Of a stretch of 64,000 bases of DNA, positions 41,502-52,342 are shown piece after piece. This DNA is from Fibrobacterota bacterium. Lineage in GTDB: Bacteria; Fibrobacterota; Fibrobacteria; UBA11236. Made by a program: the position numbers and the translations under genes. Where the stretch lies: positions 62,001-126,000 of the forward strand of contig JAEKLQ010000022.1 in assembly GCA_019509785.1 (NCBI GenBank). Direction: 5' to 3'. Positions within the stretch are counted from its first letter, which is position 1, and each line of letters starts with the position of its first letter. The notes beneath the pieces were generated by a model that saw only the letters and a list, made by a program, of their open reading frames with translations, had not been told where the DNA came from and did not search any database.

Positions 41502-41804
41502 CTACACGAGCATGTTGGCGATGCGCTCCGCGATGGTTTCCACCATCTTCGGGTCCATGTGGTAATTACCGGAGTTGACCAGCGATTTCAGCCTGCCAAC
41601 CTTAAGGTATTGCTCGTTTTCGTAGTCCGATCCGGATTCATGTCCGGCGAGCGCCTTGGCCGAATCCGAAAGATCGACCTCGTCGTGGGCTTCGGGCGCG
41701 GCCTTTTTGGCCTTGACCGCTTTGCCATCCTTGGGATCCTTGAGGCCGAGATCCCGTTGCGCCACCAGTCGGGCGACTTCGTTTACGATATCCGTGCTGT
41801 TCAT
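41502..41804 (-). CDS. flgM: FlgM-like anti-sigma-28 factor
   Basis: A 100-residue protein matching the FlgM family: DEVDLSDSAKALAG in the middle, then the sigma-binding C-terminal helices EQYLKVGRLKSLVNSGNYHMDPKMVETIAERIANML, a good match to the usual ...VARLKAAIASGxYxVDxxKIAxxLL. The N-terminal half is charged and Lys/Ala-rich, as in unstructured FlgM proteins that pass through the flagellar export channel. FlgM holds FliA (sigma-28) inactive until the hook is complete. A sigma-28-type promoter lies ~77 nt upstream, which is the usual autoregulatory arrangement. No other flagellar gene is in the window; the neighbouring upstream genes are the glycosyltransferases. Confidence 0.87.
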   Translation of the reverse strand: MNSTDIVNEVARLVAQRDLGLKDPKDGKAVKAKKAAPEAHDEVDLSDSAKALAGHESGSDYENEQYLKVGRLKSLVNSGNYHMDPKMVETIAERIANMLV

Positions 41805-41880
41805 ACTATACCTGCTTTTGCCTGTTTGGCTTCTAGATTAAGTCTAAGAAGTCATATTCCCCCATGGTGTTCCTACCCCT

Positions 41881-41909
41881 AATATCGACAAAGTTATGAA
41901 CGCACTTTA
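41881..41909 (-). promoter_or_regulatory. Sigma-28 (FliA/SigD) type promoter upstream of flgM
   Basis: On the minus strand the sequence reads TAAA, 16 nt, then GTCGATATT (TAAA at 41909-41906, GTCGATATT at 41889-41881). The accepted SigD/FliA pattern is TAAA, 14-16 nt, GCCGATAT/GCCGATAA, so the -35 is perfect and the -10 matches at 7 of 8 positions. The predicted start, near 41875, leaves a leader of ~70 nt before the flgM ATG at 41804. It overlaps no gene, since the preceding glycosyltransferase stops at 41991. Confidence 0.75.
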
Positions 41910-41990: not shown

Positions 41991-44627
41991 TCAGCCGGAT
42001 AAGCCGTGGGATCGATAGAGCGCGGCCAACGCCGCTCCCGTTAGGTCCCGGCCTTCTTTGATCCCTAAGCCCGCCTTGAGCAGGGCCACGGCCAGATCGC
42101 GGCGTCCCTGATCGAACCAATATTGCCCCAGCCATTGCAGGGCCTGGATCTTGAGGAGCTGGAAGTCCACCGGCAGGAAAGTCCCTGCTTCTACGAGATC
42201 GAGAAGGCGTTCGTAGAAAGGCCTGGCCGAATCGGGGCGGCCCGCGGCAGCCTCGATTTGGGCCTTCACCAGCATGGCCTCGGGGAGCGGGGAAGCAACG
42301 GCCAGGGCGGGCGCCAATTCTCGCAGGGCCTCGGCATGCCGGCCCAGGGCGGCCAAGGATGCGGCGGCCTTGGCGGGCGCGCCGTCGCGCACGTGGGGGT
42401 CGGAGCCCGTCGCGGCGGCCAACGAGGCGGCCCGCCGGAACCACTCCACCGCGGCCAGGTGCTCGCCCAGGTCGGCGCAAGCGCAGCCGAGGGTGTATAG
42501 GGTAACCGGCGTGATACCCCGATCGGTCCCCACCTGGGCCTCGAGGATGGCCTTGTTGCGTTGCTGCTTGGCTTTGGCCAGGGCCGGGTCGGCGTAACCG
42601 GTGTGGAGGATCTTGGCGGCCAGGTATTCCACCGGGATGCCGGCGGCCTCGATGGCGGGCAGGATCTGCTCGTGGACGGGGGCCCGGAAGCGCAAGGTGG
42701 GGCGGTTGGGGAAGACGCGGATCTGGTTGAAGACGCTGCCGGTGAGGCCGCCATCGCGGCTGTTCTTCACCCTTAGCCCATAGGCCTTGGGCGCGAGGTC
42801 CGGATCGCCATCGGCGAGGGATCGGATGGCCCGCTTATCCTCTTCCAGGAGTCGATCGTCGGCGTCCAACCAGAGGATCCACCGGCCGGTGGCGGCGTCC
42901 AGGGAGAGGTTGCGCGCGCGACTGAAATCGCCCGTCCAATCGGATTGGATCAATTTCGCGCCGAAGCGTCGGGCGATGTCCTGGGTCCCGTCGTCGGATC
43001 CGGTATCCACGATGATGGTTTCGCCGGCGAGGCCGCGCACCGATTCCAGGCAGGCAGGCAGGTTCTCCCGTTCGTTCTTCACGATCATGCATAGGCTTAA
43101 CGCGGGACGCGTTGAAGCCGGGGAGAGGTCTTCCCATTCCGGCAGGCGGCGCTGGGGAAACAGGGCCCGGGCGGCCGCCAAAGCGTCGCGGAAATCCTCG
43201 CGCCGATCCAGTTTGCGCAGCAGGACCAGGCGTTGCGCGTGCAAATCCGGGACCGCGGTGGGATTGAGCAGGATGGCCTTGGCCCAGCATTTCTCGGCGG
43301 CCTCGGTTTCGCCCTGCGCCAATTTGCATTTGCCCAGCAGTTGCCAAGCCTCCACCACTTGAGGATGCCCCGCGAGCAAGGCCTCAAGCAATTTCCGGGC
43401 GGCCGCCATCTCGCGCCGTTCGAAGGCGAACTGGGCCAGGTAATAGCGGCTATAGATCTGGATCAGATCGTACTGGTTGCTGGTGGTGGTGAAGCTTACC
43501 GGCATGGAGACCAGCTTGGCGTAGAGGGGCTCGGCGTCGCGCGGGCGGCCCATCTCCATCAGGCATTGCGCTTTGTGGAAATAGGCCTCGTGCTTATCGG
43601 GCTGAAGGGCGATGGTCTTGTCGAACCAGCCCAGCGCTTCTTCGCGGCGGCCCAGGCGCTGGTATCCCTGCCCTATGCAAGAGGGCAGTTCCCGGTAGAT
43701 GTCGCGGTTGATGGTCTCGCAATCCGGCATGGCCATGGTCCGCTGATAGGCTTCGATCCCCTTCTCGAACTCGCCGAGGATGTAGTACGAATCGCCGATG
43801 GCCATGGCCAGGGAAGGCTCGCGCGCCACGCGCGCGGGATCCTCTTGCAAGAGGAGCAGGTTGCGGAGGGCTTTCTTCTTCTTGAGTTCCGGATCTTCGT
43901 AGCCGGTGTGGTGCACGGTGGTTTCGGTCCAGAAGGTATGCAATCCCAGCAGGGCCACCGCGTGCAACAACTGCTCGTGGACTTGATAGCGGAAGCGCAA
44001 GGCGGGATGGTTGGGGAACATGCGCAATTGCATGAAGCGACCGCCGATGGGAAGGCCCCCCTGCGTATTGATCACCTGGAAGCCGAAGGCGCGGTCCATG
44101 GGGGCGGTCTTGAGCTTGCGGAAGTTCTCCAACTGATCGGCGGGAATGCGATCGTCCGCGTCCATCCATAGGATCCACGCGCTGCGGGCCGTTTCGATGG
44201 AACGGTTGCGGGCCCAGGCGAAATCGTTCCGCCACTCGCCCTGGATCCAACGCACCCCGAGGGAATCCAGGATGGCCTGGGTCCCGTCGGTGGAACCGGT
44301 ATCGTAGACAAGGATTTCATCGGCGATGGGCCGGAAGCTTTCCACCGCGTCCCGGATGTTCTTGGCCTCGTCCTTGACGATCATGGCGACGGTCAGGGTC
44401 CCGGGAGGCCATGGGGTTTTCAAGACGCCGCGGATGGTGCCGAACCGCTTGGCCATTTCCGCGGCGGGCATATCGTCGGGAAGGCCCGCCCAATCGAGGG
44501 ATGGCGCCTTCGGGGCGGGCGCCTGAGAGGCGGGCGCCTGGGAGGCGGGCGCCTGGGAGGCGGGCGCCTGGGAGGCGGGGATGGGATCCCTTTCCTTCCG
44601 CTTGGCTTTCTTGCCGGCTTTGGACAT
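41991..44627 (-). CDS. Tandem GT2-TPR glycosyltransferase
   Basis: An 878-residue cytoplasmic protein with two GT-A family-2 domains and helical repeats. After a basic N-terminus and four PASQA repeats comes GT2 domain 1 (residues ~75-280): LTVAMIVKDEAKNIRDAVESF, YDTGSTDGTQ, WILWMDADDRI (DxD) and RYQVHEQL. TPR units follow at ~300-500 (GDSYYILGEFEKGIEAYQR, LGRREEALGWFDKTIALQPD). GT2 domain 2 is at ~510-700: LSLCMIVKNERENLPACLESV, VDTGSDDGTQ, WILWLDADDRL, APVHEQILP. The C-terminal ~170 residues are TPR-like. The K-N/D-E, DTGSxDG and DADDR set defines the SunS-like/Geobacter-type branch. Third glycosyltransferase of the operon. Start at 44627, with a distant GAGGGAG; a 41-codon longer frame overlaps the neighbouring gene. 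The donor sugar is unknown. Confidence 0.88.
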   Translation of the reverse strand: MSKAGKKAKRKERDPIPASQAPASQAPASQAPASQAPAPKAPSLDWAGLPDDMPAAEMAKRFGTIRGVLKTPWPPGTLTVAMIVKDEAKNIRDAVESFRPIADEILVYDTGSTDGTQAILDSLGVRWIQGEWRNDFAWARNRSIETARSAWILWMDADDRIPADQLENFRKLKTAPMDRAFGFQVINTQGGLPIGGRFMQLRMFPNHPALRFRYQVHEQLLHAVALLGLHTFWTETTVHHTGYEDPELKKKKALRNLLLLQEDPARVAREPSLAMAIGDSYYILGEFEKGIEAYQRTMAMPDCETINRDIYRELPSCIGQGYQRLGRREEALGWFDKTIALQPDKHEAYFHKAQCLMEMGRPRDAEPLYAKLVSMPVSFTTTSNQYDLIQIYSRYYLAQFAFERREMAAARKLLEALLAGHPQVVEAWQLLGKCKLAQGETEAAEKCWAKAILLNPTAVPDLHAQRLVLLRKLDRREDFRDALAAARALFPQRRLPEWEDLSPASTRPALSLCMIVKNERENLPACLESVRGLAGETIIVDTGSDDGTQDIARRFGAKLIQSDWTGDFSRARNLSLDAATGRWILWLDADDRLLEEDKRAIRSLADGDPDLAPKAYGLRVKNSRDGGLTGSVFNQIRVFPNRPTLRFRAPVHEQILPAIEAAGIPVEYLAAKILHTGYADPALAKAKQQRNKAILEAQVGTDRGITPVTLYTLGCACADLGEHLAAVEWFRRAASLAAATGSDPHVRDGAPAKAAASLAALGRHAEALRELAPALAVASPLPEAMLVKAQIEAAAGRPDSARPFYERLLDLVEAGTFLPVDFQLLKIQALQWLGQYWFDQGRRDLAVALLKAGLGIKEGRDLTGAALAALYRSHGLSG
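44516..44575. repeat. Four tandem copies of a 15-bp unit inside a glycosyltransferase gene
   Basis: The unit CGGGCGCCTGGGAGG occurs four times head to tail (44516-44530, 44531-44545, 44546-44560, 44561-44575); only the first copy has a single difference (GAGAGG for GGGAGG). It keeps the reading frame and encodes the PASQA repeats near the N-terminus of the minus-strand glycosyltransferase. The near-perfect identity suggests recent expansion by slippage. Confidence 0.93.
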
Positions 44628-44650: not shown

Positions 44651-47239
44651 CTAGGCCGCGCCCTGGCCGTATCCCAAGGCCTCCATCTGGCGCAGGAAGT
44701 CCCGCATCGTTTCCGACGGGCGGGCCATCGCCTTGAGATCGGCGTAGCATTTGGCGTAGAGCTTATTATGGTTCACGAATTCGGAGAAGTAAACCAGCAG
44801 GGTGGGATCCTCCGGGAATTTGCGCAACGCTTCGCGGTAGTTGGCGTAGATCTCTTCCACCGGGCGGCCGGCAGACTCGGCGCATTTTCCGCGAAAGGCT
44901 TCCAACACCCCGGATCGCAGCCGGAGGAACGGGCGGGATTCGAACAAGGCGAGGACGTCGCGATGCTTGCCCCTCTCGTACAAGGATTCCAGCAGGTCTT
45001 CCCATAAGCCTACGTCCCCGGGAGCCAACGCCAGGTAGGCCCGCGCATAGCCCTCCGCTTCGGCATCGCAGTCGGTGGCTTTGAAGAAATCCCAGGGTAC
45101 GCGCGGATCCAAGGGGAAGTCGCGCAGCCCGCCGGCGATCAGCTCGCGCAGGGCTTCGCGCGCGCGGGGCGCTTTGCCGGGGCCGAAGAGTTGCAGTTCG
45201 CAGAGAACGGCCAGGGCCAGGGAATTCCGGCGCACCGTATAGGCATCGGTGGCGACCCGGCCCACGGTTACGGGCCGATCCAGGGCCCCATACAGGAATT
45301 CCAGGGCTCCGCGCAGATTGTTGGCCGCCAGGGCCCGTTTGCCCAGCCAGTACAAGGGTTTGGGGTCGGAGGCGTCCCAGCGCGCGGCCAGACGGAACCA
45401 TTCCTCCGCTTCCGCATCGCGCTCCTGCTTGGCGAAAGTCTCGGCGAGAAAAGCCGGGTAATGCCGGAGCGCTTCGTCCGCGGGGGCATCGCCCAGCGCG
45501 CGGGGATCGCGCCCGGGCAATAGCGACAGGTAGGCTTCGGTGGCCCCGGCGTATTCCCCGCTTTGGTACAGGCAATTGCCGTATTCCATGATCACTACCG
45601 GATCGGCCGGGAATTCCTGGCGCTCCTTTTCCAGCAAAGCGCGGTTGCGCTTCAGCTTGGCGCCGCGCTTGGCCGGCGTATCGTACCCCAGGTGCAGGAT
45701 TTCCAGATCGGTCGCGCCGATGGGCACCTTCAGGCGGCCCAGGGAAGTCCCGAGTTGTTCATGGATGCGGCCTTCGAAAGCGGCGCCCAGATGGTTGGGG
45801 AACAAGCGGATCTGCCGGAAGCATTCGCCGCGGGAATTCTCCCGCGGGCTCCGCACCACGAAGCGGTAAGCCCGCTTGGGGCCGTCCAGCAAGGGCGCCA
45901 GGGCTTCCCAGAAATCCTCGTCCACGCGGTCGTCGGCGTCGAGCCACAATATCCAGCCTCGGGTGGCCGCGGCCAAGGAAACGTTGCGGGCCGCCGAGAA
46001 ATCGTCGCACCAGGAAAATTGGCGCGCCTGTATGCCCGCCTCCTGCAAGGCCTCCACCGTGCCGTCGGTCGAACCCGTATCCACGACGATCCATTCCGCG
46101 CGGCCCAAGGGCAGGCAAGCCAGCAGGCCCGGCAGATTGGCGGCTTCGTCCTTCAGGATCGAGCAGATGGACAGGTCCAGGCGCGGCCCGCCGCCTCCGC
46201 CTCCCGGCGGGGCCAAAGGATCTTCCGGTGGAGGCGACCCGCGTTCCGGGTCATCGCCTTCGCGCGTGGTTTCCAAGAGGGTAGCGGACGCGTTACGTAT
46301 GCCTTCCCAGTCGAAAGGCACGCCGCCGTATTCCGGCCCGGCGTTCAGGCACCGGGTCCATAACGAACGGGCTTCGGCCTTGAGGCCGGTGAGCCAAAGG
46401 GCTTTGCCGCATTCGAGTAGCCAAGGCGCATGCGCCGACCCACGCGGGCAGGCCAGGAAGGCTTCCAGAGCTTCGGCTGGCCGATCCTGGAAGCAAAGGG
46501 ATTGGCCCAGCCCCACGTAGGCGGCCAGCAGGACGTCATGGGTGGCGGGGTGCGCGCTTGCTATAGCCCGCCGAAACGAGATCGCGGCGTCCGCCCAGCC
46601 TTTCTCGGCCATCCGCATGCGGCCTTGGGCCAGCCATAAGGCCGCCGAGGCATCCGGGGCCATCAGCGCTTTTTCCAAAAGGGCGCGGTTGCGGGCGCGC
46701 TTGCGTTCCACGGCGGCCATGTCCCGGTACCCGGTGTGCAGGATTTCCGCGGGCGCGGCGCGCACGGTCAGCCCGGCTTCCGCCACGGCTTCGCCCAAGG
46801 TCTCGTGCACGGGATTGCGGAAGCCCAGGCTTTTGCCGTTGGGTACGAGGCGGATTTGCGACCAGGTGGTTTCGGCGCCGTCCGGCCCGGGGGATCGCAC
46901 GCGAAAGGCGTAGGCCTCGGAGTGGTCCAAGAGCGGCAGGCGGGTCGCGAGCCAGTCCCGTGCTTCCGGCGTCAGTTCGTCATCAGCGTCCAGCCACAGG
47001 ATCCATTCGCCCCGGGCCAGCGAAAGCGAATGGTTGCGCGCGGCGGAGAAATCGCCCGTCCAGGGGAAATCGTGGACCTCGGCGCCGTAGCCTCGGGCGA
47101 CTTCCCGCGTGCCATCGCGGCTCCCGGTATCGACCAGGATGCGCTGGGCCGATAGCCCGTCGAGGGACCGGAACAATGACGGCAAGTTCCGTTCCTCATC
47201 GCGGGCGATGACGGCGACGGATAGCCGCGGGTGGTTCAA
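44651..47239 (-). CDS. Tandem GT2-TPR glycosyltransferase, coupled to the 1498-residue protein
   Basis: An 862-residue protein. GT2 domain 1 starts at once (LSVAVIARDEERNLPSLFRSL, VDTGSRDGTRE, WILWLDADDEL, NPVHETLG). TPR-like helices follow (GRMRMAEKGWADAAISFRRAIA), a Pro/Gly linker, then GT2 domain 2 at ~350-550 (LSICSILKDEAANLPGLLACL, VDTGSTDGTVE, WILWLDADDRV, GRIHEQLG). The rest is a long TPR array (GNCLYQSGEYAGATEAYL, WDASDPKPLYWLGKRALAANN). I place the start at the TTG (47239) that overlaps the preceding gene's TGA in TTGA, with GAAGG upstream: the family similarity begins exactly there, whereas the open frame that continues to 47833 is antiparallel nonsense in Arg/Gly-rich sequence. Second of three glycosyltransferases, translationally coupled. 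Confidence 0.88.
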   Translation of the reverse strand: MNHPRLSVAVIARDEERNLPSLFRSLDGLSAQRILVDTGSRDGTREVARGYGAEVHDFPWTGDFSAARNHSLSLARGEWILWLDADDELTPEARDWLATRLPLLDHSEAYAFRVRSPGPDGAETTWSQIRLVPNGKSLGFRNPVHETLGEAVAEAGLTVRAAPAEILHTGYRDMAAVERKRARNRALLEKALMAPDASAALWLAQGRMRMAEKGWADAAISFRRAIASAHPATHDVLLAAYVGLGQSLCFQDRPAEALEAFLACPRGSAHAPWLLECGKALWLTGLKAEARSLWTRCLNAGPEYGGVPFDWEGIRNASATLLETTREGDDPERGSPPPEDPLAPPGGGGGGPRLDLSICSILKDEAANLPGLLACLPLGRAEWIVVDTGSTDGTVEALQEAGIQARQFSWCDDFSAARNVSLAAATRGWILWLDADDRVDEDFWEALAPLLDGPKRAYRFVVRSPRENSRGECFRQIRLFPNHLGAAFEGRIHEQLGTSLGRLKVPIGATDLEILHLGYDTPAKRGAKLKRNRALLEKERQEFPADPVVIMEYGNCLYQSGEYAGATEAYLSLLPGRDPRALGDAPADEALRHYPAFLAETFAKQERDAEAEEWFRLAARWDASDPKPLYWLGKRALAANNLRGALEFLYGALDRPVTVGRVATDAYTVRRNSLALAVLCELQLFGPGKAPRAREALRELIAGGLRDFPLDPRVPWDFFKATDCDAEAEGYARAYLALAPGDVGLWEDLLESLYERGKHRDVLALFESRPFLRLRSGVLEAFRGKCAESAGRPVEEIYANYREALRKFPEDPTLLVYFSEFVNHNKLYAKCYADLKAMARPSETMRDFLRQMEALGYGQGAA

Positions 47240-50200
47240 GCGTAAGCCTTCAGGGCCGCCTTTACATCCGCCAAGGCCGGGTTCTTGTCCACCGATTGGC
47301 GGAGCTTGGGCAGCACGTCGCCCGTACGGCCCAGGGCCTGGGCGCATTGCCAGAGGTTGAGGAGGATGTCCTGATCCGAGGGATGCAAGGTCGCCGCCAA
47401 CTCGAACAGGCCGAAAGCGTCCGTCGCGCGTTTTTCGGCGAAGGCGATGACTCCTAAGCCGTTGTAGGCCTGCGGATTTTCCGGGAAGGCCTTGACGGCA
47501 TCCAGGTAGGCCAGGATGGCTTCGCCCTGCTTGCCTTGTTCCATCAGGCGTTCGGCATCGGCCAACCGGCGCGCGTTCGCTTCCAGGGCCTCGAAGGTCC
47601 GGAACATGCAGATGGACGGGCCCTGCGCCTTGAGATGGCGGCGCATGGCCAAGGCCTGGGCATGATTGGGGTTGACGGCCAGGGCATGGTCCAGGAGCAC
47701 GCCGAGCGAATCCGGATCCGACAATGACAAGCCGGTATCGAAAGCGTTGATGAGCGCATCCGTCCAGGCGGGACGCACCTCCAAGGCCAAGCAGAAGAAG
47801 TTCCAGGCCGCGTTGGCGCTGCCTTCGTACCACGAAGCGATCCCGAGGTTGTTATAGGCGCGGAAGTCCTCCGCATCGGATTCGACGGCCGCTTTCAGGT
47901 ACTCGACGGCCCCCGCGACATCCTTGCGTCGTAGCAGCGCTTCGGCCTGTTGGTTGGCATCGCGCGAGGCCAAAAGATCCGCGGCGTTCAAGCGTCCCCG
48001 GGATAGGGCATGCCGGACTTGCTCGGCCATGGCCGCCAGATCGGGGCCCTCGCCGGCGGGAATAGGGTTCTTGCCGGCCGCGTCCTCGAGCAGGCGCAAG
48101 GCCTCTTCGCCGCGGCCCATGGTCAGCAAGGTATCGGACAAGTTGAAAATGATGTCGGCTTCCGCCGGCGCATGGCCCAAGGCGGTGCGGAAATGGGCCA
48201 GGGCCATGCCGGCGTCGCCGCAAGCGTGCGCGATGATGCCCAGGTAATTGGCGCACGCGCCCGCGTCTTCGCCGCGCCGCATGCGGCTTTCGAGTTGATC
48301 GATGGCCGCGGAGTACTTGCCGTCGCGGATATGCGCTTCCACGGCGGAGCGCCAGGCGGGAAGGGCGGGGGCGGCCGGTACGGTCGGGGCCGCCGACTTG
48401 CCGGCTTCCAGGCCGGACAGGAAGCGGCGGAAAACGGGATTGTCCGGAAAGCGATGGGCCAGGGCGGAGGCGTCATCGCGGGTAACTTGCCCGCTACGGG
48501 CCGAGATCGCGTCCAGCAGGTTCTGGGCGGCGTCCGCATGCGCGCCATCCAATTCCAGGCTGCGGATGAAGAAAGACATGGCCTCGGTGGAGAGGTTCTC
48601 GGAAAAAAGGACCACGCCCAGACTGCAATAGGGTTCGGGATTGCCCGGTTCGGCGGCTTGTGCCTCCAGGAAAAGGGTGCGGGCCTTATCCAGATCGCCG
48701 GCTTCGTAGGCGGCCTGTCCGTCCTTGAGCTTGCTTTGCGCCGCCGGCTTCAGGGCCTGGGTCGGAGCCGCCGCTTGCGCAGCCGGCTTCAGGTCGGCGG
48801 GGGCAGGGTCGAGGTAGGTGTCGTGTACGGCCGCCGCCCCTTTGGCCCATTTGGCCTCGTATTTTTTCTGGTTCTCGATCATGAGGGCGCGCCAATCGTT
48901 GGATTCCTGGTTGAAGGAGACGCTGCCGAAATGATGGATGAAGCTGTCGTTGGCGAACAGCGCGCGGTAGCCGCGGTAGCGCACGCGCAGGCAATAATCA
49001 TCGTCCTCGAAATTGCCTTTGCCGTAGCGCTCGTCGTAGAAGCCCACCTCCGCGAAGACGCGGCGCGGGATGAGATGGCAGAAGCCCTTGATGAAACCGA
49101 ATTCGCAGGCCGAGAGATCGTGCTCCGCTTGCCATTTGCGGATAAAAGGGGCGATGCCTTGCTCGTCGTATCCGGTTGAGCCCTTATAGGGCACGTCGGC
49201 CACCACTTGGGGCCCGGCGATGTAATTGGAACGCGGGCCCACCAGTCCGATGGACGGATCGCTCTCGGCCAATCGCACCATGTTCTCCAGCCAATCCGGC
49301 CCGACGATCACGTCGTTATTCAAGATCAGGATGTACTCGCCGTCGGCCAGGCGCATGCCCTGGTTCCAGCCCTTGGACACGCCCAGGTTGGTCGCGTTCC
49401 GGATCGTCTTCGCCCCCGGCACCGAGCGGAAATATTCCCAGGTATCGTCCTTGCTGCCGTTGTCCACCAGGATCAATTCATGGTTCTGGCGGGTATGCTT
49501 GCGGATGGAGTCGATGCATTTCTTGGTATACGCCATCTGGTTGAAGCCCAGGATGACGATGGAGACCTTCTTGGACAAGGCGTGCGCGGCGGCGCGGGGC
49601 TTGGCTTCGATCTGGATCCAGCCCGGTTGCGGATCGGCCTTCCCGGAATTCCCCTGGGGAAATCCCAGGTACGGCCTTTCGCCGGTGACGGCGAAGCCGG
49701 CTTCCCAAAGCACGCGGCGGATGCCATCGGGCGTGAGATCGATGGCCGCCAAACCGTTCCGGGGAGGCAGGCCCTTGGCTTCCTTGACGTCGATGATGGC
49801 GACCAGGCGCTTGAGGCGTTCGCCTTGCCGGCGGATGTTGGCCAAGCGCTCGGGCAGCTTATCCAGCAGATCCGGCGTGATGCGGAAGATGAAAAGGTCT
49901 TGCTCGGTGAAGCGCGAGGGTTTGCCCGCCACGTCGAAAACGGAGATGGGACCGCTGACGCCGGGGGCTCCGGCCTTGCTGCCGGCGAAACAGACGTGCT
50001 GCGAATCGCGCAGGATGGGGCGCAGGCTTTCGGGATAAAGTTCGATGCCGTCGCGCATGGTTTGCGCCGGGGAGTCCTTGACCGGGGTCCAGGTCTCGCG
50101 GGCGGGCGCAGGGGCTCTATTGGAGGATGCGGCGATCCGTACGGCCAAGCCGATGGGCAGATCGGCGGCGCGCGCCGACAGCCAGGGCGGATCGATGGGT

Positions 50201-51732
50201 TTACCGGCGGACTGGGCGCGCGCACCCGAAGCGCGATCCCCCAATCCGGCGAAGAATCCGTCGGCGGGCAGCGATGCGAGGGCTCCGCGCAGCCAATCCT
50301 TACGGCACAGGACCGCCGCGCCGGGAGCGGCCTCTCCCTCCCCGATGCGCAGGGGCAGGGGCAAGGCCGCATCCAGCGTGGCCATATCGCGCTTGTCGAG
50401 CCAATGATTGAAGAGCGCCGAGGCTTCCACGCCGGCGGCGCAATAGAAGACGTGCGATCCCGAGGCCAGGGCCAGGGCCATTTCCAAGGCCTGCCGGGCC
50501 GGGAAGGCCGGGCCCAAATCCAGTTTGCGCAGATCGGCGCCCGAGGGGGCCTCGACCGTGATCGAGCCGGCGCAATTAAGCACGATGATCCCGAGGCCGG
50601 GACGGGCCGGAAGCGAAGCCAGGGTGCGATCCAGCCGGGCCGCGACCGTTTCGTCATCCGCCGGGCGCGCCGCGCCCGCGTGTACGATGACGGTTACCGC
50701 CTTCCAGGCTCCCCCGGCGGCATCCGCCTTGTGGGCCTGATCGTCGCGTTCCATCCGTTGTCCATTGATCATAGAGCCTCCCGCGTGCGTGGGCGCGGAT
50801 GGGCCATGGGCCAATCCGACGGCGCCTTCATCGAGTCCTGCCACTAGCGAAGGGGACGGGTTGAACCACCCGATCCCCCAAAGTTCCAAGGCGGGCGGAA
50901 CCTGGTTCCGTCCGCCGTAATGCTTCACCAATTTCCGGTAGAGCGCGTCGGTCGATTCCTGCGTGAGTCGGTCGACGTGCGATTTCTTTTCGGTCTTGAA
51001 ACTCTTCTGCCCTTCGTGGAACACGAAGGCGTCCGAGGCGACGACGAGCTTGAGGCCGGCATTCCGAAGCCGCCAGCTTAAATCGAGATCATCATTACCC
51101 AGGAACAAATCCTCGTCCATGCCGCCCATCGACAGGAACAGCTCGCGCCGCATCATCAGGCAGAAACCGATCAGCAATTTACTCTCGACCCCGCGGCCGG
51201 CATTGGCTTCGCGCAAGATGCGCGCGATGCTTTCGGCCACCTCCGGCACCCCGTTCCCCGGGAAAGACTGCGCCTGCGCCCAAGCCGGGGGCAGGTTCAC
51301 GTCCAGTCGTTGCAATCCGGCCACGTAATTGGATACGGGACCCACCGCGCCGACTCCTTTGAATCCGTCTTTGGTTTCGCCCTTAGTCTCGAAATGGCGG
51401 GCCATGGCATCGGTCCAGCCTTTCGTGACCCAGGTATCGGGATTCAGGAAGATGACGAATTCGCCCTTGGCGATGGCCGCTCCCTGGTTGCAGCCTTTGG
51501 AAAACCCGTTGTTGCCCCCGTTCAGGATCATGCGGATGTCGCCCTGCGACCGCAGGTATTCCTGCGTCCCGTCGCGCGAGTCGTTATCCACCACGATCAC
51601 CTCGTGGGATCCATCCGCGCCTAGCGCGGCCGGGCCGCATCCCCGCAGCGAGTCCAGGCAGGCCCGGATGTTTTCGCGCGAGTTATAGGTGACGATGACT
51701 ACGGAGTAGCGTGGTTTCCCGTAAGGTAACAT
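47236..51732 (-). CDS. Giant GT2-pseudoGT-GT2-TPR glycosyltransferase
   Basis: A 1498-residue protein with several modules. Residues ~8-300 are a GT2 domain of the rhamnosyl/WbbL type (YSVVIVTYNSRENIRACLDSL, VIVVDNDSRDGTQEY, NGFSKGCNQG, FVIFLNPDTWV, LGNDDLDLSWRLRNAG). Residues ~345-505 have the outline of a GT2 fold but lack a DxD (YCAAG instead). Residues ~560-720 resemble the last half of a methyltransferase without SAM motifs. A second WbbL-like GT2 domain follows at ~728-990 (VSIVILGFNQMAYTKKCIDSI, LVDNGSKDDTWEY, ILNNDVIVG, GNFEDDDYCLRVRYRG). The final ~480 residues are TPR repeats (AYEAGDLDKARTLFLEAQAAEPGNP). It starts 12 bp after the MerR gene and overlaps the next gene by 4 bp. Soluble; no membrane helix seen. 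Confidence 0.88.
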   Translation of the reverse strand: MLPYGKPRYSVVIVTYNSRENIRACLDSLRGCGPAALGADGSHEVIVVDNDSRDGTQEYLRSQGDIRMILNGGNNGFSKGCNQGAAIAKGEFVIFLNPDTWVTKGWTDAMARHFETKGETKDGFKGVGAVGPVSNYVAGLQRLDVNLPPAWAQAQSFPGNGVPEVAESIARILREANAGRGVESKLLIGFCLMMRRELFLSMGGMDEDLFLGNDDLDLSWRLRNAGLKLVVASDAFVFHEGQKSFKTEKKSHVDRLTQESTDALYRKLVKHYGGRNQVPPALELWGIGWFNPSPSLVAGLDEGAVGLAHGPSAPTHAGGSMINGQRMERDDQAHKADAAGGAWKAVTVIVHAGAARPADDETVAARLDRTLASLPARPGLGIIVLNCAGSITVEAPSGADLRKLDLGPAFPARQALEMALALASGSHVFYCAAGVEASALFNHWLDKRDMATLDAALPLPLRIGEGEAAPGAAVLCRKDWLRGALASLPADGFFAGLGDRASGARAQSAGKPIDPPWLSARAADLPIGLAVRIAASSNRAPAPARETWTPVKDSPAQTMRDGIELYPESLRPILRDSQHVCFAGSKAGAPGVSGPISVFDVAGKPSRFTEQDLFIFRITPDLLDKLPERLANIRRQGERLKRLVAIIDVKEAKGLPPRNGLAAIDLTPDGIRRVLWEAGFAVTGERPYLGFPQGNSGKADPQPGWIQIEAKPRAAAHALSKKVSIVILGFNQMAYTKKCIDSIRKHTRQNHELILVDNGSKDDTWEYFRSVPGAKTIRNATNLGVSKGWNQGMRLADGEYILILNNDVIVGPDWLENMVRLAESDPSIGLVGPRSNYIAGPQVVADVPYKGSTGYDEQGIAPFIRKWQAEHDLSACEFGFIKGFCHLIPRRVFAEVGFYDERYGKGNFEDDDYCLRVRYRGYRALFANDSFIHHFGSVSFNQESNDWRALMIENQKKYEAKWAKGAAAVHDTYLDPAPADLKPAAQAAAPTQALKPAAQSKLKDGQAAYEAGDLDKARTLFLEAQAAEPGNPEPYCSLGVVLFSENLSTEAMSFFIRSLELDGAHADAAQNLLDAISARSGQVTRDDASALAHRFPDNPVFRRFLSGLEAGKSAAPTVPAAPALPAWRSAVEAHIRDGKYSAAIDQLESRMRRGEDAGACANYLGIIAHACGDAGMALAHFRTALGHAPAEADIIFNLSDTLLTMGRGEEALRLLEDAAGKNPIPAGEGPDLAAMAEQVRHALSRGRLNAADLLASRDANQQAEALLRRKDVAGAVEYLKAAVESDAEDFRAYNNLGIASWYEGSANAAWNFFCLALEVRPAWTDALINAFDTGLSLSDPDSLGVLLDHALAVNPNHAQALAMRRHLKAQGPSICMFRTFEALEANARRLADAERLMEQGKQGEAILAYLDAVKAFPENPQAYNGLGVIAFAEKRATDAFGLFELAATLHPSDQDILLNLWQCAQALGRTGDVLPKLRQSVDKNPALADVKAALKAYA

Positions 51733-51744
51733 TAGAGTTACCTA

Positions 51745-52128
51745 TCAGAACTGGTAATGGAGTTCGTTCTTGACCATGGCCAGGATTTTCTCGGCCATTT
51801 CCGCGCTCAGGCTTTCGAGGGTGCCGCTGGCCTGGCTATTGGCCAAGTTGGCGGCTTGGTTCTGCTTCGCCAAGGCGCGCTTCGCGCCGGCGATCGAATA
51901 CCCTTCTTCCTTCAGCATGCGGAAGATGGTGCGCAGCTTGTTGATCTGCGCGTCGCCGTAACGGCGCTGTTTCCCCATGGTGCGCGGGGCCACCAGGAAA
52001 TCGGAAAACTCCTTCTCCCAATACCGGATGGTATGGGGCGGCACGCCTATGATGCGCGCGGCATCGCGGATGCTGATAAGGGGTTCCTGGGTCTTCTTCT
52101 CGGTCATTTCCATCGTGTCGGCAAACAT
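51745..52128 (-). CDS. MerR-family transcriptional regulator
   Basis: A 127-residue DNA-binding protein. The winged-helix MerR head is complete: ISIRDAARIIGVPPHTIRYWEKEF, then LVAPRTMGKQRRYGDAQINKLRTIFRMLKEEGYSIAGAKRAL. The tail is short (~40 residues) and has no Cys cluster or drug pocket, so effector binding is unlikely; this looks like the small MerR type common in Deltaproteobacteria and Bacteroidota/Chlorobiota. The start at 52128 has AAGGAG. A 20-codon longer frame is ruled out because it runs into the sigma-54 promoter. It is the first gene before the giant glycosyltransferase (12-bp gap), so it probably regulates or is co-expressed with that operon. Confidence 0.88.
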   Translation of the reverse strand: MFADTMEMTEKKTQEPLISIRDAARIIGVPPHTIRYWEKEFSDFLVAPRTMGKQRRYGDAQINKLRTIFRMLKEEGYSIAGAKRALAKQNQAANLANSQASGTLESLSAEMAEKILAMVKNELHYQF

Positions 52129-52170: not shown

Positions 52171-52188
52171 AAGCAAGGCCGGTGCCAA
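52171..52188 (-). promoter_or_regulatory. Sigma-54 (RpoN) -24/-12 promoter before the MerR-glycosyltransferase operon
   Basis: The minus strand reads TTGGCACCGGCCTTGCTT (52188 to 52171). The RpoN consensus is TGGCAC, five nt, TTGC(A/T), with GG and GC exactly 10 nt apart; every defining base and the spacing are satisfied. The predicted start, near 52161, leaves a ~33-nt leader before the MerR ATG at 52128, with AAGGAG in between. Sigma-54 promoters need an enhancer-binding activator (FlgR/FleQ/NtrC type); I found no such gene in the window. Confidence 0.85.
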
Positions 52189-52228: not shown

Positions 52229-52342
52229 TGAAGTTGGAGTCGAAGATTCGCGGTAGGGATGGGAAGGAATTTCCATCCGGGCCCGGCAGAAACTTCGAGT
52301 GATAGCGGATGGAAAATACCAGCAAGACGCTAAGGTTGCCGT

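Follow-up and report, generated by a model that had tools for sequence, protein, structure and literature searches.

A conserved sigma-54 promoter ahead of a merR-glycosyltransferase operon with a likely flagellar role in Fibrobacterota

Introduction

In Pseudomonas, Vibrio and Campylobacter, sigma-54 serves the rod and hook genes and some flagellin genes, and sigma-28-type sites serve flagellin genes and flgM. Helicobacter pylori needs the glycosyltransferase gene jhp0106 for its flagella and transcribes it together with flaB under RpoN control (PMC5368276). In Caulobacter, the TPR part of FlmG binds flagellins, which are O-glycosylated in the cytoplasm (PMC7591256).

We analysed a stretch of 64,000 nt (hereafter, the window) of a 5.4-Mb Fibrobacterota genome, in which a merR gene and three glycosyltransferase genes lie behind a sigma-54-type (-24/-12) site. 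As at flaB-jhp0106 of H. pylori, glycosyltransferase genes with a likely flagellar role stand behind an RpoN promoter, here a predicted one. There, however, the promoter is that of the flagellin gene flaB and one glycosyltransferase follows, whereas here MerR comes first, followed by three GT2/TPR enzymes and no flagellin. The enzymes resemble Caulobacter FlmG in joining a TPR part and a glycosyltransferase part in one protein, but FlmG has a GT-B fold, whereas the enzymes here belong to GT2 and mostly carry two catalytic domains, and flagellin is their putative substrate. Like the hierarchies of Pseudomonas, Vibrio and Campylobacter, this genome has sigma-54-type sites at rod/hook genes and some flagellin, and sigma-28-type sites at flagellin and flgM; unlike them, it belongs to Fibrobacterota and appears to have a MerR gene in the middle class. 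We found no report in the open-access literature of a MerR regulator of flagellin or of flagellin glycosylation. Thus, the kind of control is known from H. pylori; the MerR component appears to be undescribed, and the phylum is a new one for it.

Fibrobacterota are best known from non-motile Fibrobacter. Motile members with a polar flagellum exist, and Chitinispirillum has motility and flagellar genes (PMC4814513). The present analysis offers a promoter-level view of the flagellar hierarchy in this phylum. Our main reading, to which we give a probability of roughly 0.87, is that a genuine sigma-54 promoter drives a middle-class flagellar operon, which would encode MerR and three flagellin-glycosylating GT2/TPR enzymes, with MerR as a filament-stage regulator.

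The promoter and the operon

The initial annotation described a -24/-12 match with GG and GC 10 nt apart, located about 40 nt upstream of an ATG, and proposed that this site corrects the start of MerR and puts MerR, and probably three glycosyltransferases, under RpoN control. The features are as follows.

52171..52188, minus strand: sigma-54 (-24/-12) promoter TTGGCAC-N5-TTGCTT, predicted from the sequence and from its conserved orthologous position
51745..52128, minus strand: MerR-family DNA-binding protein, 127 aa, ATG at 52128 (PF13411, E=7e-20; start conserved)
47236..51732, minus strand: glycosyltransferase A, 1498 aa, two GT2 domains and TPR (PF00535, E=1e-50, and TPR models; position kept in relatives)
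44651..47240, minus strand, start approximate: glycosyltransferase B, two GT2 domains (PF00535, E=3e-31)
41991..44627, minus strand: glycosyltransferase C, two GT2 domains and TPR (PF00535, E=7e-40, and TPR models)

The minus-strand sequence of 52188-52171 is TTGGCACCGGCCTTGCTT, i.e. TTGGCAC CGGCC TTGCTT, and the spacing from GG to GC is exactly 10 nt (TGGCAC-N5-TTGCW context), as described. Compared with the longer textbook consensus TGGCACG-N4-TTGCW, it has C, not G, after TTGGCAC. It is the only match without mismatch to TTGGCAC-N5-TTGCWT, both in the window and in the whole genome. The other 17 matches in the window have 2-3 mismatches each, and the total of 18 is at chance level (21 expected). 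When up to one mismatch was allowed, the genome gave 20 matches, against 4 with a reversed control pattern.

The promoter sits in the 214 bp that separate the MerR gene from an amidohydrolase gene, and its distance to the ATG at 52128 was measured as 42 nt. Counted from the GC, the predicted +1 is 52161, which would give a leader of 33 nt, with GAAGGAG ahead of the ATG. The mechanical ORF call for MerR begins farther upstream, at a TTG at 52188, and would run over the promoter. All five congeners share the ATG at 52128 but not the codons upstream of it; therefore, the correction of the MerR start was right. Some MerR-family proteins consist of a DNA-binding domain only. This also applies here: Pfam detected no C-terminal effector-binding domain, and the DNA-binding domain stands alone in the 127 aa.

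The merR stop codon and the start of glycosyltransferase A are 12 nt apart. The order of MerR and glycosyltransferase genes is kept in all congeners, and also in distant lineages with one or two glycosyltransferases (roughly 27-41% identity). The single operon is thus well supported. In comparison with relatives, homology sets in near residue 163-202 of the long ORF of glycosyltransferase B and at residue 42 of glycosyltransferase C, and this late onset indicates that the mechanical starts of both are too early. For glycosyltransferase B, this moves the start from the GTG at 47833 to a position near 47240; glycosyltransferase C probably starts at 44627, not at 44750.

Conservation of the promoter

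One perfect match per genome is close to what chance would give, and therefore conservation is the decisive test of the promoter. A near-consensus -24/-12 site was found 50-125 nt 5' of the MerR orthologue in all 13 loci with a clear MerR start. These loci comprise the window, five congeners, one genome from another family of the order, other Fibrobacterota and Ca. Raymondbacteria. By a simple consensus weighting of our own, used in place of a calibrated matrix, an equally good site occurs in 0.3-4.4% of random 150-bp pieces of the same loci. Outside the 13, locus L055/L083 has TTGGCACGCTTTTTGCAT near a MerR gene whose start codon is uncertain. Among the congeners, about 200 bp of promoter DNA is conserved although the flanking gene differs. 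No relative of the upstream neighbour gene in the window was found at the congeners' loci, which assigns the conserved block to the MerR operon.

If the match were a chance string in intergenic DNA, the operon would be read from a sigma-70 promoter. The near-chance number of perfect matches fits this explanation, but the site is conserved in every usable relative despite differing flanking bases, and the same class of site is found at flgB and flgJ. We therefore regard a chance origin as extremely improbable. The site at 52188-52171 is very likely a genuine, evolutionarily conserved sigma-54 promoter.

RpoN, activators and other flagellar promoters

RpoN control, which the initial annotation proposed, presupposes an rpoN gene and a suitable activator. 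The genome has one copy of rpoN (E=2e-62) and about 20 strong matches to sigma-54 activator (AAA+) genes. The lack of an rpoN gene, which the annotation had named as grounds for refutation, does not apply. Farther upstream there is more conserved DNA, including the following block.

52276..52302 (approximate limits), minus strand: upstream block CTCGAAGTTTCTGCCGGGCCC, candidate activator-binding site (six-congener alignment; putative function)

This block is conserved in congeners about 110 nt ahead of the -24 element. A similar motif, AGTTTTTMCCSG, occurs in the flgB/flgJ promoters. With up to 2 mismatches it was found in 13 of 15 congener flgB/flgJ promoters, whereas 300 shuffled motifs averaged 0.7 such promoters and reached 9 at most; the motif was picked by eye from the promoters of this genome and the test promoters are related to one another, so this is a lead only. 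A strict motif taken from the merR upstream blocks, CGAAGTTT-N3-CCGG, had 48 matches in the genome against 37 for a reversed control, i.e. chance level, and was dropped. We also searched for the flagellar activator by neighbourhood. There were two candidates, one near flgJ (L037) and one on the contig of flgB1 (L033), and neither could be settled on.

A search for further -24/-12 sites near flagellar genes, which the annotation had proposed as a check, gave sites ahead of one flagellin gene, a flgJ-like gene and two copies of flgB. The two flgB paralogues are on different contigs (L185, 9669-10091; L177, 13732, minus strand), each with its own sigma-54-type site, and both copies are present in most congeners. 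The sites of flgB1, flgB2 and flgJ recur in congeners. Our expectation that all flagellin promoters would be of the sigma-54 type failed: one has a -24/-12 site, and among the others, which have sigma-28-like sites or no visible site, one carries a sigma-28-type site.

The gene that follows the operon, together with its own promoter, was absent from the initial annotation.

41502..41804, minus strand: flgM, anti-sigma-28 factor, 100 aa (PF04316, E=2e-4, narrowly short of the cut-off, which two of the three orthologues tested reach)
41882..41909, minus strand: sigma-28-type promoter of flgM, TAAAG-N15-GTCGATAT (pattern search; conserved in congeners)

flgM is directly downstream of glycosyltransferase C. 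The sigma-28-type pattern TAAAG-N15-GTCGATAT has 3 matches in the genome and none in the reversed control, and the site about 98 nt before flgM is kept in the four congeners that could be read. This two-sigma arrangement is as in other flagellated bacteria and places the merR-glycosyltransferase unit in the middle class.

Linkage to flagella

This genome has six flagellin-type genes and represents a flagellated member of Fibrobacterota. In relatives, the operon adjoins flagellar genes. Two Chitinivibrionales loci have the order flgK-flgL-fliC-fliW-csrA-merR-glycosyltransferase, and G055 has flgK-flgL-fliC-fliW-merR-glycosyltransferase, followed by another glycosyltransferase gene and hook genes. 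Taken with or without csrA, this order was seen in Chitinivibrionales and in a further member of the class, at L082, L101 and L102, and in part at L103 (fliW-csrA-merR-glycosyltransferase). Among 61 genomes, a strong MerR orthologue was found in 9 of 12 that bear flagellin (above the family cut-off) and in none of the 49 flagellin-less ones. The count by genus, 4 of 5 flagellated against 0 of 8 without flagellin, is a partial guard against counting relatives many times. All 61 genomes have rpoN, so rpoN is not the factor that separates them. Three flagellated relatives (G012, G014 and G057) have no recognisable MerR orthologue, which indicates that MerR is not essential for flagella.

The promoter could be real and the glycosyltransferases could still act on another surface product, such as cell-wall or capsule polysaccharide or pili, the flagellar linkage being incidental. 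GT2 is a very broad family that can modify other substrates, sigma-54 serves pili and other surface functions too, and in the genus of the window the operon is far from fliC. However, in several lineages the operon comes directly after fliC-fliW-csrA, flgM is directly downstream in the window, strong orthologues are confined to flagellated genomes, and flagellin and MerR genes are adjacent in KSB1-type bacteria (see below). We consider another surface product improbable. The flagellar role that was at first a guess is supported by the synteny in relatives, the flagellated-only occurrence and the position of flgM. On these genomic grounds, the merR-glycosyltransferase unit is likely a middle-class flagellar operon, and flagellin is the likely substrate of the three glycosyltransferases.

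MerR relatives and the role of MerR

Beyond Fibrobacterota, a related MerR gene lies directly before fliC in KSB1 and four other bacterial MAGs (L104, L105, L106, L109 and L110). The KSB1-type cluster also contains a second fliC, an apparent fliD, and genes that appear to encode glycosyltransferases and an asparagine-synthase-like protein; except for fliC, these functions were named by sequence appearance and not by a profile test. No good sigma-54 site was found before the KSB1-type MerR in the three scorable loci.

A tree was built from 45 MerR proteins. Three groups separate in it: the operon-linked proteins, with moderate support (82/51), those of KSB1 type (100/99) and the paralogue of this genome (100/97). 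The alignment has about 100 columns and some branches are long; the tree does not establish a tie between the operon-linked and KSB1-type groups, and a long-branched Desulfamplus sequence falls inside the operon-linked group. Weak MerR matches in G006-G009, G012 and G014 were rejected as orthologues: those included in the tree group with the paralogue or sit inside its branch, and G009 was left out of the tree.

The operon-linked MerR is akin in sequence to the housekeeping MerR linked to pheT/ihfA and shares its small, DNA-binding-only architecture. This kinship would be expected if the operon MerR were no flagellar regulator but had hitchhiked as a copy of the housekeeping MerR, whose gene follows pheT-ihfA. 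However, the operon MerR has another genomic home, its branch lies apart from the housekeeping group with the moderate support given above, the genome has a separate paralogue, and even in highly divergent lineages merR still heads the operon. A hitchhiking copy is thus unlikely, and we retain MerR as a plausible filament-stage regulator. In Fibrobacterota its gene stands behind a sigma-54 promoter, and in KSB1-type bacteria it immediately precedes the flagellin gene. A tentative extension, which we hold at somewhat less than even odds, is that this DNA-binding-only MerR regulates flagella in the wider Fibrobacterota/FCB group, a role not described so far, and couples rod-hook completion to flagellin production and glycosylation.

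Proposed mechanism

An NtrC-type activator of the flagellar hierarchy would open RpoN-RNA polymerase at the promoter; this assignment of the activator is a prediction. merR and the three GT2/TPR glycosyltransferase genes would then be transcribed as one unit, at the same stage as the rod/hook genes flgB and flgJ. The glycosyltransferases are expected to O-glycosylate flagellin, their putative substrate, in the cytoplasm before export, and their TPR parts probably hold flagellin. MerR would most likely tune its own operon and/or the flagellin genes. Under this model, Fibrobacterota would have a conserved flagellin-glycosylation module under RpoN, with a MerR-type regulator whose link to flagellin genes recurs in separate phyla. 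Motile members in culture, such as Chitinispirillum, would allow a direct test of the role of MerR, should the operon be present there.

Additional sites

In this genome, near-consensus sigma-54-type sites also precede an apparent small heat-shock protein gene and a SpoVG gene (PF04026), at L177 7674 (plus strand) and L183 12576 (plus strand), respectively. The third sigma-28-type match of the genome is at G000:C35:12552-12579 (L246). In the leader of flgM, at about 41840-41860 of the window (minus strand), congeners share a short conserved stretch around TATGACTTCYTAGA, which contains a three-codon frame, ATG-ACT-TCY-TAG. This stretch may encode a leader peptide or act as an RNA-binding site.
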